DNA of 64,000 nucleotides, taken from positions 1 through 64,000 of the forward strand of contig JASEGB010000007.1 in assembly GCA_030018275.1 (NCBI GenBank). Direction: 5' to 3'. The DNA comes from Actinomycetota bacterium. Lineage in GTDB: Bacteria; Actinomycetota; Aquicultoria; Subteraquimicrobiales; Subteraquimicrobiaceae. Position 1 is the stretch's first letter. The number at the start of each line of letters is the position of its first letter. Under the pieces are notes generated by a model. It saw nothing but the letters and a program-made list of their open reading frames with translations, had not been told where the DNA came from and searched no databases. The position numbers were made by a program, and so were the translations under genes. Shown here piece by piece: positions 44,298 to 51,915 of the stretch.

Positions 44298-44597
44298 TTG
44301 AGAAAGATTTTTGGGAAGGCCAAGGATTTTTATCGAGCAAGGATCGTGAGGATAGAAGAGGAGACCCCTCCCGATTTTGATTGGAGGGAAGACATACTTT
44401 ATCGGTCGCCGCCTGAGTACAGGGAAAAAGTTCGGATTAGATACGATGTGGAGATAGTGAGCATGGATAGTGGAGCGACTCATCTAGTGAAAAGTTGTAA
44501 AATTCGTGAAAAAGCGGAGTCTGAACTCGAAAAGATAGAGGAGGACCTCGAGGATTTAACCAAAATGCAGTTTGGGAGGAAATATAAATTGGAATAA
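44298..44597 (+). CDS. Conserved-looking hypothetical protein
   Basis: The 99-residue protein has no recognisable domain. It is strongly charged, with TPPDFDWREDILYRSPPEYRE in the first half and an acidic helix (EKAESELEKIEEDLEDL) near the end. TTG start after GGGAGC, 10 bases after the SH3 gene, so it is probably the last gene of that unit. Confidence 0.5.
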   Translation: MRKIFGKAKDFYRARIVRIEEETPPDFDWREDILYRSPPEYREKVRIRYDVEIVSMDSGATHLVKSCKIREKAESELEKIEEDLEDLTKMQFGRKYKLE

Positions 44598-44603
44598 ATG
44601 AAA

Positions 44604-44777
44604 TGTCCCAAGAAGCCTTCCTTGAGTCACCCCCTACTTACAAACCTTCCCATTTCATACTCCGCAATTGTTCCTTTACTCTAGCTAACCTCACAGCCAG
44701 CTATTTCGATTCCCAACTTTGGAGCTGCTACTGGTACGATTGCTTTCGGAGTTCACCTCTTAGGACTTCTTGGGACA
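44604..44777 (-). ncRNA. Candidate structured RNA B
   Basis: On the minus strand the element opens with TGTCCCAAGAAG (44777-44766) and closes with CTTCTTGGGACA (44615-44604), a perfect 12-bp helix extended by UCCU/AGGA, enclosing 150 nt. Inside, ACUCC pairs with GGAGU and GCAAU with AUUGC, continuing a rod-like arm, and CAGCU pairs with AGCUG near the apex. A minus-strand promoter with a perfect TTGACA places the start at the 5' end of the helix. No frame with a ribosome site lies within. The long rod with a closing helix and about 175 nt recall 6S RNA, but I cannot show its conserved bubble. Confidence 0.5.
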
Positions 44778-44782
44778 AATAA

Positions 44783-44811
44783 AAATTATCACATCTTCAA
44801 ATGAATGTCAA
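44783..44811 (-). promoter_or_regulatory. Minus-strand promoter of candidate RNA B
   Basis: On the minus strand TTGACA (44811-44806) is followed, after 15-17 bases, by TGTGATAATTT (hexamer GATAAT 44790-44785 or TAATTT 44788-44783). The predicted start near 44777-44779 coincides with the first paired base of the RNA. Confidence 0.5.
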
Positions 44812-44844
44812 TAAAATTTTTTACTCCATTTTCAGATGTTTATT

Positions 44845-45167: not shown

Positions 45168-45410
45168 TTACGAGTGCTTTAGGATGTGATCTTTCAAATT
45201 GTGCACCTTTTCAGGACAGTACCTTGAGACGATTTCAATCGCTTGCTCCCTCAATTTACTGTGTTCAATTTTGCAGCTTTGGGGTATCTCACCCCGAATG
45301 GCAGCGCTGGTATTCTCGGTGATTTGGATCAGTTCGGTGGCGATTACTCCATTTAACCAGATTAAATCCTTGAGCACATTTAGCATTTGTTGAGTGTCAT
45401 GGACCTCCAT
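45168..45410 (-). CDS. Small hypothetical protein
   Basis: The 80-residue protein starts at an ATG eight bases after AGGGAGG, a strong site that supports it as a real gene. It is helical and mostly polar (NVLKDLIWLNGVIATELIQI in the first half, then KLREQAIEIVSRYCPEKVHN). No family is recognised. It stands alone between the ncRNA region and adenine deaminase. Confidence 0.6.
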   Translation of the reverse strand: MEVHDTQQMLNVLKDLIWLNGVIATELIQITENTSAAIRGEIPQSCKIEHSKLREQAIEIVSRYCPEKVHNLKDHILKHS

Positions 45411-48429: not shown

Positions 48430-48668
48430 TTCTGTAGTTCATCAAGGGATGGCAACTCGCCACGCCAAGAGTGAATCTCCTTTCCGTTATCGTTCGTAAT
48501 AACGATGGACGGTGTGGACATTATTCCGTAGAATACTGCCTCAGCGAGCCCATTCGCTTCATCCAAGTTATAATACTCCACGTTATCCACATCAATATTG
48601 GCAATGAGGGCTTTGGCTGCGGGACATATCGGGCAATCCGGTTTCCAAAACAGCTTCACCTTCACCAT
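48411..48668 (-). CDS. Glutaredoxin/NrdH-like redoxin
   Basis: The 85-residue thioredoxin-fold protein has a CPICPAAK active site at residues 12-19 and a cis-proline loop (STPSIVI). Placed between nrdD and nrdG, it probably supplies electrons to the reductase. Many class III reductases use formate, so a dithiol donor here would resemble the NrdD subtype that uses thioredoxin-like partners (inference). It overlaps the nrdD end by 77 bases in another frame. Confidence 0.85.
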   Translation of the reverse strand: MVKVKLFWKPDCPICPAAKALIANIDVDNVEYYNLDEANGLAEAVFYGIMSTPSIVITNDNGKEIHSWRGELPSLDELQKCLQKP

Positions 48669-51600
48669 TACGTCCCCCCAGATTGGTTCTTATTCTTTCC
48701 TTAAGTTCCCCCATCTTCCCCTTATTCCACGTGGGAACTTTCGAGAAATAGCCCACGATGCGGGTGATTCCATATACGTCATTGGAACTACAAAGGGGAC
48801 AAATATCGAATAAGCCTCGGGAAGTCCTCCTGCAATTATCGCAAACGGTAAATTCCGGGCTGAAGGCTATCTGCGCACAGTGTGTATTTTTGAATGTTTT
48901 AATGACGAAATTTTCGATGGATTCTGGGGGTGGTTCATTTTCACCCAGCCAGATGTGGACTATACTTCCGGCTTCGATTAGGGGGTGAAATAAGCTTTGC
49001 TTTTCAACCCTCTCAGTATAATCCACTGGCGCATCCACTGCCAGGTGAATGCTGTTTGTGTAGTAGTATTCGTTATTTTGGATGTTACCCTTAATTACCT
49101 TCCTTGTCTGTTCCGGATAATACTTCATATCGAGCTTTGCCAGACGATAACCACTAGATTCGGCCGGGGATTCTTCCAGCACTAGTTTGATCTCGTACAT
49201 ATCAGATAACTGTTTGCATTTCAGATTCATGTGCGAGACTACCTTCAGCCCGAACTTTAGGGCCTCTTCAGATTCGTGTAGCTCTTGTCCCAGGTGAGCC
49301 TGGACCATCTCGTTTAAGCCCAATAATCCGACCAAATAAGTGAGCCTTTCCAAGCGGAGATATGGATCACCATTACGCGATACACTGAGCAGAGCCAGGG
49401 GACCACTCTTTCCAAGATCCAAGAGGCTTTTAATAAACCTTTTCTTTTGGAGGTGTGCCTTGGCGACCAGTTCGAGGATCCGATTGAGCTCCGTGAAAAG
49501 GAGTTCGTCATTACCGTGGCTTTTATAGGCTATTCGCGGAAGATTGATGGTGATGTTTTGAAGAGCCGAAAACCTCATTTTCTCGGGAGTTTTCGCCTCT
49601 TCCAGATCCTTTTCCCCGAGTCTTAACTTCAATCTGCAACATTGTGATACAGTAGTTTCATCTCCCCTATCAAAAACGAAGTAGGTGATGCCATGCTTAC
49701 TCGCCATTTTGCAGGCAAGATGGAGAAATTCCTCCCAACCGGGTGTCTTAAAGAAATCCTCATTTATATGCAGTAAGGGCTTTGGGAAGATGAATGTCTT
49801 CCCTAAAGCATCGCCTTCGAGATAAACCTCAAACATCGCCTTTAGGAAAAGCTGTGCCTCTCTTTCGTATTCCTTGTACGTTTTTCCGGTGTATTCTCCA
49901 CCCGGACCAATGGCAGGGGTATCTCTGAAATGTCTCGGTATATTCCAGTAGAGATTGAAATCTGTGAACACCACTTGGGAGCCTCTGGCTCCTGCAAGCT
50001 GGTTGAATTCATATATGAGCATCTGTGCCAGTTGTCGAATTTCCTTATAGGAGCGATCCATGAGATAGGGAGCGAAAAACATGTTTACAGCTTCCCAGCC
50101 CACGGCGCCAGCATAATGAGCTTGCAGGCTTGAGGCCATTTTTACCAAGTGTCCGATGAGTACTTCCGCGTGTCTCGCTGGCTTAGAAGTACTGGTAATA
50201 TTGGGCAGAGCCAAACCATACTTTTTAATGTATTCCAGCGAATGACCCCCGCAATTGTGTGAGTATATTCCGTTGCAGATGAAAGTATTGCTTTCAGTGG
50301 TTATGTCATAAATATATTCATCGGGGATATCCACCGACTCTATATGAGTGACTTCCACGACACCAGATTCCCGAATCGTGGTGCAATTTTTGGGAGAAGG
50401 TACTTTTTTATATTTGAAGGATGGAAGTTGAATCTCAGCTTTCTTGCCAAAGGCTATACACCAGATGGGATAGCGTTGAATAATGGTTCTACCTTTATGT
50501 TGCCTGATACTACCCACACCCTGAGGTTTTCTTGCGGATGGGTTAAAGCCTAACATCTGAAGGATATAGGCTAGTTGGTTAACTAAAGTGGCTGAACTGA
50601 CTCGAATGGAAATACTCGCTCCATCTACGCTCCCATCTCCATCTACAATCCCCGCGATTACACCCCTTATAAAATCCAGCGAATAGCTATGTAGCTCCGG
50701 AGGTAAGGCTTTGTTTCTTGCAGTAGTTCCCACACGCCAGACATTAATGAAAAGATCTCTGATCAAACAGTCATTAATAACGATACGGTTCCTGCGCTTC
50801 TTCTGCTCAAAGGGGATATTGAGCTTATTCAAATTCTCAATGAGCCTTTCCTTGCCCTCGCCATCGCAGGTAAAGGCGATGGTATGTTCGCTCTGATGTC
50901 CTTCGGCCATATAAAATCCAAGTATCCAACCCAACTCCTCAGTTAGGCGTAAAGTGACTGGTGTTTTGTTGTATCGAGAACCATCCACGGTTGCTGCAAT
51001 GAATTCTTCGACCAAGTTAATGTGAGTTATGTTATAGCTTTTGAATTTATAGTTTTCTGTGTAGAGTTTGTCGCCTATTTTTAAAGCAAAACAGGGCTTG
51101 ATTCCTTGGGTGGTAATCATGGGATGATCATGGGTCACAACCTGTTGCTTACCATCCGATGTGCGAATGAAAAGCATTTGTTTATCGCCCTTTGCCTTCT
51201 TGGTGAGCTGAACTATTCGTGTCCACCTTTCCTGTTTATCCAATATGAAAAGGGGACCAATTGGGCGTTTTATCCAGACGCCTTCTTCTATTTGAATCTC
51301 AAAGGGAAGATCTTCATAGAGCTGCTTTATTGATTGGATTCTCTCCAGTTCTCCCTGTCTTTTTACAGAGATTACGCTATCACCCATGTAGGTATAAGGT
51401 CTCACTATAAATCCTAGGTCGTGGAGGTGGATATCTCCCATCAGATGTGCTAGGGCCACATCTTCGTTGAAGACCTTCCTCAAGGCGAATTCCTTTAGGA
51501 TGGTTTCGGCGATGGTGAGATTGATGGATTCCGGGTTATGTGTTGTGTTGCTATTTTCTTTATTGGCACTTATGATGATTTGCTCCACATCGTACATTGG

Positions 51601-51915
51601 CAGTCCCAGGTGGGAATGTTTTTTATGTATCATTGTCAAACCGCGCTCGATCAATTCTATGTCGATGAGCTCCCGAATTATGCTGGTCGTGATGGTTCCA
51701 AAGTTGCTTTCAAATATTTTCCTCTCTACGGCATCCGCTATTTCCTGAGCGAGTTCGCTGCTGGCGCCCGTCTCCTTAATTAAAGAGTTCACGATCTTCG
51801 ATTTATCCCAGCTGTTGATCTCAGATTTTGAGGAGGTACTAACCAGAAGAGCAATGTCGGTGGTATCGCTCGGTTTCGGAAGGCTCTTTATCACATTAAT
51901 GATCTTTGGAGCCAA
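48592..51915 (-). CDS. nrdD: Anaerobic (class III) ribonucleoside-triphosphate reductase containing an intein
   Basis: The precursor has 1107 residues; removal of a 380-residue intein leaves about 727, normal for NrdD. An ATP-cone occupies about residues 1-95. The reductase starts with DIHLHDLGFIVRPY, is split by the intein at 175-554, and resumes with CGGHSLEYIKKYGLALPN. The zinc site CDNC...CPLC and the glycyl radical site RIVGY (Gly about 1055) are present. A 25-residue tail after the usual end overlaps the redoxin gene. TTG start nine bases after GGGAGGGG. Two NrdR-like boxes lie upstream. Confidence 0.94.
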   Translation of the reverse strand: MAPKIINVIKSLPKPSDTTDIALLVSTSSKSEINSWDKSKIVNSLIKETGASSELAQEIADAVERKIFESNFGTITTSIIRELIDIELIERGLTMIHKKHSHLGLPMYDVEQIIISANKENSNTTHNPESINLTIAETILKEFALRKVFNEDVALAHLMGDIHLHDLGFIVRPYTYMGDSVISVKRQGELERIQSIKQLYEDLPFEIQIEEGVWIKRPIGPLFILDKQERWTRIVQLTKKAKGDKQMLFIRTSDGKQQVVTHDHPMITTQGIKPCFALKIGDKLYTENYKFKSYNITHINLVEEFIAATVDGSRYNKTPVTLRLTEELGWILGFYMAEGHQSEHTIAFTCDGEGKERLIENLNKLNIPFEQKKRRNRIVINDCLIRDLFINVWRVGTTARNKALPPELHSYSLDFIRGVIAGIVDGDGSVDGASISIRVSSATLVNQLAYILQMLGFNPSARKPQGVGSIRQHKGRTIIQRYPIWCIAFGKKAEIQLPSFKYKKVPSPKNCTTIRESGVVEVTHIESVDIPDEYIYDITTESNTFICNGIYSHNCGGHSLEYIKKYGLALPNITSTSKPARHAEVLIGHLVKMASSLQAHYAGAVGWEAVNMFFAPYLMDRSYKEIRQLAQMLIYEFNQLAGARGSQVVFTDFNLYWNIPRHFRDTPAIGPGGEYTGKTYKEYEREAQLFLKAMFEVYLEGDALGKTFIFPKPLLHINEDFFKTPGWEEFLHLACKMASKHGITYFVFDRGDETTVSQCCRLKLRLGEKDLEEAKTPEKMRFSALQNITINLPRIAYKSHGNDELLFTELNRILELVAKAHLQKKRFIKSLLDLGKSGPLALLSVSRNGDPYLRLERLTYLVGLLGLNEMVQAHLGQELHESEEALKFGLKVVSHMNLKCKQLSDMYEIKLVLEESPAESSGYRLAKLDMKYYPEQTRKVIKGNIQNNEYYYTNSIHLAVDAPVDYTERVEKQSLFHPLIEAGSIVHIWLGENEPPPESIENFVIKTFKNTHCAQIAFSPEFTVCDNCRRTSRGLFDICPLCSSNDVYGITRIVGYFSKVPTWNKGKMGELKERIRTNLGGRNGEGEAVLETGLPDMSRSQSPHCQY
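50254..51393 (-). mobile_element. Intein with LAGLIDADG homing endonuclease inserted in NrdD
   Basis: The 380-residue insert lies between Tyr174 and Cys555 of the precursor. Block A reads TYMGDSVISV, so the first residue is Thr instead of Cys/Ser. Block B has THDHPM (TxxH). Two DOD endonuclease motifs are complete: LGFYMAEGH (about 332-340) and IAGIVDGDGS (about 420-429), each with its acidic residue. The end reads FICNGIYSHN followed by Cys+1, a normal His-Asn/Cys junction. The downstream splicing chemistry looks intact; the N-terminal nucleophile is unusual. Confidence 0.92.

Follow-up and report, generated by a model that had tools for sequence, protein, structure and literature searches.

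What occupies the 570-bp gap between two open reading frames (ORFs; 44298-44597, 99 aa, and 45168-45410, 80 aa) in the window, a 64,000-nt stretch of contig JASEGB010000007.1 from an actinomycetotal genome? A first-pass annotation of the sequence had placed there a 174-bp element with a perfect closing helix, a candidate non-coding RNA expressed from the minus strand. We find that the element runs from U44777 to A44604 on that strand (174 nt, reading GUCCCAAGAAGUCC...GGCUUCUUGGGAC), and that its ends form a perfect 13-bp closing helix in which GUCCCAAGAAGUC (44776-44764, starting at G1) pairs with GGCUUCUUGGGAC (44617-44605), extended by the additional pair U44777-A44604. The minimum free energy of the minus strand is -62.3 kcal/mol, compared with -42.3 +/- 3.8 kcal/mol for 200 dinucleotide shuffles (z = -5.31; 0/200 as low). 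The plus strand folds as well (z = -4.75), without a promoter in register. Overlapping the RNA on the plus strand is a 59-aa ORF that does not survive in the two closest relatives, where a stop or frameshift interrupts it; the earlier statement that the element holds no coding frame therefore stands.

The 3′ end of the window RNA shows a terminator-like stem (44626-44607, minus strand) with a T-rich tail, making the U-rich stretch at 44590-44604 (minus strand) the likely zone of termination. Copies in Coriobacteriia, described below, have a U-rich tail at the corresponding position, and a hairpin often comes next. In the window RNA, the 3′ arm of the closing helix could instead pair with the neighbouring CUCAAGGAAG in a terminator-like hairpin (44626-44607, minus strand); termination and closing-helix formation may therefore compete.

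The element recurs widely. Using blastn on 60 related genomes, we identified it in other genera and families of the class Ca. Aquicultoria, including Ca. Oleimmundimicrobium and Ca. Geothermocultor, with similarity limited to the element and its promoter; in the sole same-genus genome lacking the window copy, the contig ends at that site. We aligned nine long copies (alignment A2) and built from them a first covariance model, R1, which finds copies in 27 of 36 Ca. Aquicultoria genomes, usually one to three in each. The window's own genome has two (the window copy and C4:120004-120137), and genomes G003 and G009 have three each. An exact 24-nt pattern scan of GTDB species genomes added about 35 true copies, nearly all in metagenome-assembled genomes labelled Coriobacteriia or Actinobacteria. 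Pattern matches in Bacteroidales, Verrucomicrobia and others had no model match and were taken as chance, and eight in viral contigs were likewise rejected as phage-borne copies, none being a full model match (best 16.8 bits).

Searching with a second covariance model, R2, built from 43 sequences, we detected the family in 31 of 397 genomes sampled from the phylum. In a second class, which its contig names identify as Coriobacteriia, 64 of the 200 genomes sampled have it, commonly as two or three copies. No copy was found by R2 among the genomes listed for families f24, f31, f47 and f76-78 of this class, and three genomes of another family gave weak, divergent matches, the folded one (L136) keeping the closing helix. 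The window element itself scores 174.6 bits with R1 and 142.9 bits with R2. By these model matches the element is a member of a large, multi-copy, class-wide family, which goes beyond the single locus first described: we count over 130 copies, spread across about 90 genomes from uncultured members of two actinomycetotal classes. Some copies lie in local pairs, tandem or divergent, 0.2-2.5 kb apart (L059, G445:C31, G463:C70, G467:C6 and G411:C18); those of L059 (639-811 and 3180-3354) flank a DtxR-like/HD-GYP gene pair.

Covariation across these homologs supports the predicted fold. RNAalifold folding of the nine-copy alignment A2 gives 42 pairs, 20 of them with compensatory double changes. In an alignment of 43 homologs produced by MAFFT and fitted to no structure (A4), 93.5% of pair cells are paired compared with 79.8% after shuffling, and 22 of 34 pairs show double changes, in 207 cells compared with 67. 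The covariation score is 0.459, against 0.201 for shuffled alignments and at most 0.131 when partners are slid by one column. Likewise, the eight strongest column pairs in an APC-corrected G-test (6-176, 55-122, 36-143, 79-97, 52-126, 37-142, 29-152 and 84-91) all lie on the diagonal of the rod. Compensatory changes in the closing helix had been proposed as supporting evidence, and they are present: five of its pairs carry double changes, alignment pair 6-176 occurs as GC 27 times, AU 15 times and CG once, and 99.6% of cells are paired along its 5′ arm, the 3′ arm being paired and covarying across homologs. Every other helix but one also shows such changes. When the 43 sequences are folded one by one, nearly all reach the same minimum-free-energy rod, and a few adopt alternative folds; helices 5 and 6 are separated by a variable stretch of about 21/22 nt, which is often paired in these single folds.

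Beyond pairing alone, the closing helix and two internal loops are conserved in sequence. In loop 1, a GAAA strand (44744-44747, minus strand, as for all loop coordinates here) that is invariant in the 43 homologs faces AAGUA (44635-44639), whose ANUA pattern is nearly invariant, with the bulged position varying. In loop 2, the columns of CAGUAG (44728-44733) and GAAA (44653-44656) are almost invariant in both alignments. Both loops read like sarcin-ricin (bulged-G) modules, whose consensus is AGUA/GAA; in three dimensions the resemblance is a putative one. A distal loop 3, with GAAA at 44704-44707 and AGUA at 44680-44677, is less conserved; its GAAA is nearly invariant in the nine Aquicultoria copies and variable in the second class.

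The predicted promoter is fixed with respect to this structure. The first-pass annotation had read a TTGACA promoter that would begin transcription at the first paired base, and the homologs support this promoter placement. On the minus strand, the -35 element TTGACA (44806-44811) is separated by a 17-nt spacer from the -10 element TAATTT (44783-44788), which is preceded by TGA, and six further nucleotides lead to G44776, the first paired G and predicted +1. Relative to this G, TTG[AC] at -37 to -34 and TA...[TC] at -14 to -10 are in register in all 50 copies checked, compared with 1.9% of shuffled upstream regions. A generic promoter scan of the window did not list the 44811-44783 promoter because TAATTT matches only 3/6; we accept it because the homologs keep the register.

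Upstream of the core promoter, the two classes carry different signals. An A/T tract that may act like an UP element lies immediately before the -35 element of the window copy (44812-44824, minus strand), and A/T tracts are found at the same position in most Aquicultoria copies. In the two Coriobacteriia-type paralog groups, sites matching CCRYTHR instead recur every 21 bp, near -74, -95 and -116, and their upstream frequency is 2.3 per 400 nt compared with 0.59 expected. A strict pattern of two CCRYTHR sites plus promoter was matched in 10 of 24 genomes, always at an RNA of the new family, and its reversed control had no match in the 24 genomes. Phased 21-bp arrays are seen 70-140 bp upstream of the RNA in L042, L064, L070, L081, L085, L091, L134 and others. 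Among six genomes examined for rRNA promoters with the same upstream array, 16S was found in one. This layout suggests strong transcription by a specific route, as a reading of promoter sequence rather than an expression measurement.

The length of the RNA varies considerably, and its base is the constant part. The closing-helix sequence is also common to variants of 81-137 nt, and copies of 134-155 nt adjoin queD in the window's order. A minimal copy of 85 nt (G009, L129) retains the closing helix together with the proximal loop and the module GAAA/AAGUA, with a GUAA loop closing the end. What this copy retains suggests that the essential part of the rod is its base. In family f5 (L011, L012, L014 and L015), an 81-nt RNA resembles the long form in its closing helix alone; genomes of this family that have it also have a long copy.

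The genes around the RNA differ from copy to copy. One paralog of the second class has a divergent DtxR-FeoA regulator/feoB pair on one side and a convergent queD on the other; a further paralog adjoins gatB, and other copies adjoin degV or adenine deaminase. The window copy's neighbours, ORF99 and adenine deaminase, are kept in a second family. Because queD neighbours the RNA in Aquicultoria as well, the queD locus is probably ancestral. No single gene is common to the neighbourhoods of all copies, which disfavours a cis-regulatory role. Just 3′ of the queD-side RNA copy lies a single-copy 47-bp element, CCCCCCATGGTTAATAGAGGCACGGGTCTCGAGAACCCACTGGGGGG (L040 1501-1548, corresponding to C4:120146-120193 of the window's own genome), which also occurs in L005, L006, L007, L009, L013, L036, L037 and L041. 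This element, present in 13 of 60 genomes, shows stronger conservation than the RNA and has no Rfam match at gathering threshold; it may be a bidirectional terminator or a structured element in its own right. Elsewhere in the window, an ORF of 1107 aa (48592-51915, minus strand) resembles anaerobic ribonucleotide reductase and contains an apparent intein ending ...GIYSHN before CGGHSLEY.

Is this RNA already catalogued? No Rfam 15 family, 6S included, matched it at gathering threshold in the window, at 10 Aquicultoria loci or at 19 Coriobacteriia-type loci, and the 6S model RF00013 had no match in the window even at E<=10. The same genome encodes a canonical 6S RNA (C1:140857-141046, 67.2 bits) and an SRP RNA (C20:4873-4972, 73.5 bits) elsewhere, and R2 matches neither locus. 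The earlier description of the element as recalling 6S yet not clearly being 6S was thus apt. We also found no description of the RNA in the main text of open-licence PMC papers. Together, the fold, covariation and model scores indicate that window 44604-44777 (minus strand) almost certainly encodes a real structured RNA of a new family.

The best overall explanation, and one we regard as probable, is a stand-alone, trans-acting, protein-binding structured RNA. Transcription would proceed from a sigma-70-type promoter held in fixed register, with a predicted start at the first G of the 13-bp closing helix; it may reach high levels, and the sealed ends may confer stability on the product. The RNA could then bind protein as a decoy or scaffold, much as 6S or Y RNAs do, with the closing helix and proximal loop module as the recognition site and the distal rod as an optional extension. 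That the RNA binds a protein with its closing helix and proximal loops is our best inference, and we give it an even chance. Because the same fold and promoter placement are found in about 90 genomes, this is probably an abundant housekeeping-type RNA. More specifically, it may equally be, or not be, a new modular class of such RNAs, present in nearly all Ca. Aquicultoria and often met in environmental Coriobacteriia, driven by a phased array in the latter and forming a ribonucleoprotein with a global regulator or a ribosome-related protein.

Several other explanations bear on the same observations. A second, divergent 6S RNA (6S-2), which would bind RNA polymerase through a central bubble and template pRNA, could account for a rod of about 174 nt with its own sigma-70 promoter and often two copies per genome, and the variable, possibly looser stretch between helices 5 and 6 might be its bubble. 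We consider this improbable: conservation is concentrated instead in the small loops and the closing helix, the supposed bubble varies more than any other part and is often paired in single folds, and the 6S model finds nothing here while the genome's own 6S (67 bits) goes unrecognised by R2. The intergenic position, individual promoter and one to three copies per genome would also suit a regulatory RNA that base-pairs with mRNAs, and some copies stand divergent to the DtxR-FeoA regulator and feoB, as with iron-regulated sRNAs. Such an RNA seems rather unlikely, as nearly all conserved nucleotides fall in helices or sarcin-ricin-like loops, leaving no conserved exposed seed, and the genomic context varies, with other copies by gatB, degV or adenine deaminase.

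The apparent fit of the two internal loops to the bulged-G (sarcin-ricin) consensus, common in rRNA, together with a promoter layout similar to that of rRNA promoters, raises the idea of an RNA that acts on the ribosome, in hibernation or assembly, with loops mimicking rRNA motifs. The likeness is one of motif only, and Aquicultoria copies do not keep an anti-Shine-Dalgarno sequence in the 3′ tail; this too we hold to be rather unlikely. The similarity between the Coriobacteriia 3′ tail (ACACCUCUAUUCU) and the 3′ end of 16S was set aside, since Aquicultoria copies do not share it. Finally, the element could be a miniature inverted-repeat transposable element whose 12-bp 'helix' is a set of terminal inverted repeats. 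Perfect terminal repeats and the duplicated or inverted local pairs of some genomes fit this idea, but most genomes have one or two copies at loci conserved over families, covariation extends throughout the interior, the promoter is fixed outside the repeats in 50/50 copies, and the window flanks show no obvious target duplication. These observations make a transposable element highly implausible. The protein-binding RNA of a new family remains our preferred reading.

To our knowledge, few structured RNAs are conserved across bacterial classes with strong promoters of their own and often several copies (6S, SRP, RNase P, tmRNA and a small number of others), and we know of none that has not proved to act on a central machine. 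The family described here is absent from Rfam 15, and with a covariance model already built, an 85-nt minimal core in hand and a start site predicted, its partner and role are directly testable. What is new is the RNA class, which is related to no catalogued family; how it acts may prove conventional.

The E. coli rrn P1 promoters carry UP elements or phased FIS sites upstream. The promoter region of the new RNA is like these rRNA-type promoters in that its TTGAC/TA...T elements are preceded, at set distances, by A/T tracts or by helically phased sites, but unlike rrn P1 its phased sites are CCRYTHR and the strict pattern is found only at the new RNA. With bacterial SRP RNA (RF00169) it shares a stem-like form and conserved asymmetric loops; identity with SRP RNA was rejected, as the genome's SRP RNA lies at its own locus, where R2 has no match. 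Like the Y RNAs bound by Ro60/Rsr, it has a terminal helix that is conserved and an interior that differs in length between copies (81-174 nt here). Ro60 recognises a bulge in the Y RNA helix, whereas the helix of the new RNA is continuous and without a bulge; Y RNA identity was rejected, with no Rfam match and the TROVE/Ro60 protein absent from all 36 Aquicultoria class genomes. There is also an outward likeness to 6S RNA (RF00013), in its rod of about 180 nt, its own sigma-70 promoter, its paired 5′ and 3′ ends and its occasional two paralogs. This resemblance is superficial: 6S RNA conserves a central bubble, whereas the new family conserves small internal loops and the sequence of its closing helix.
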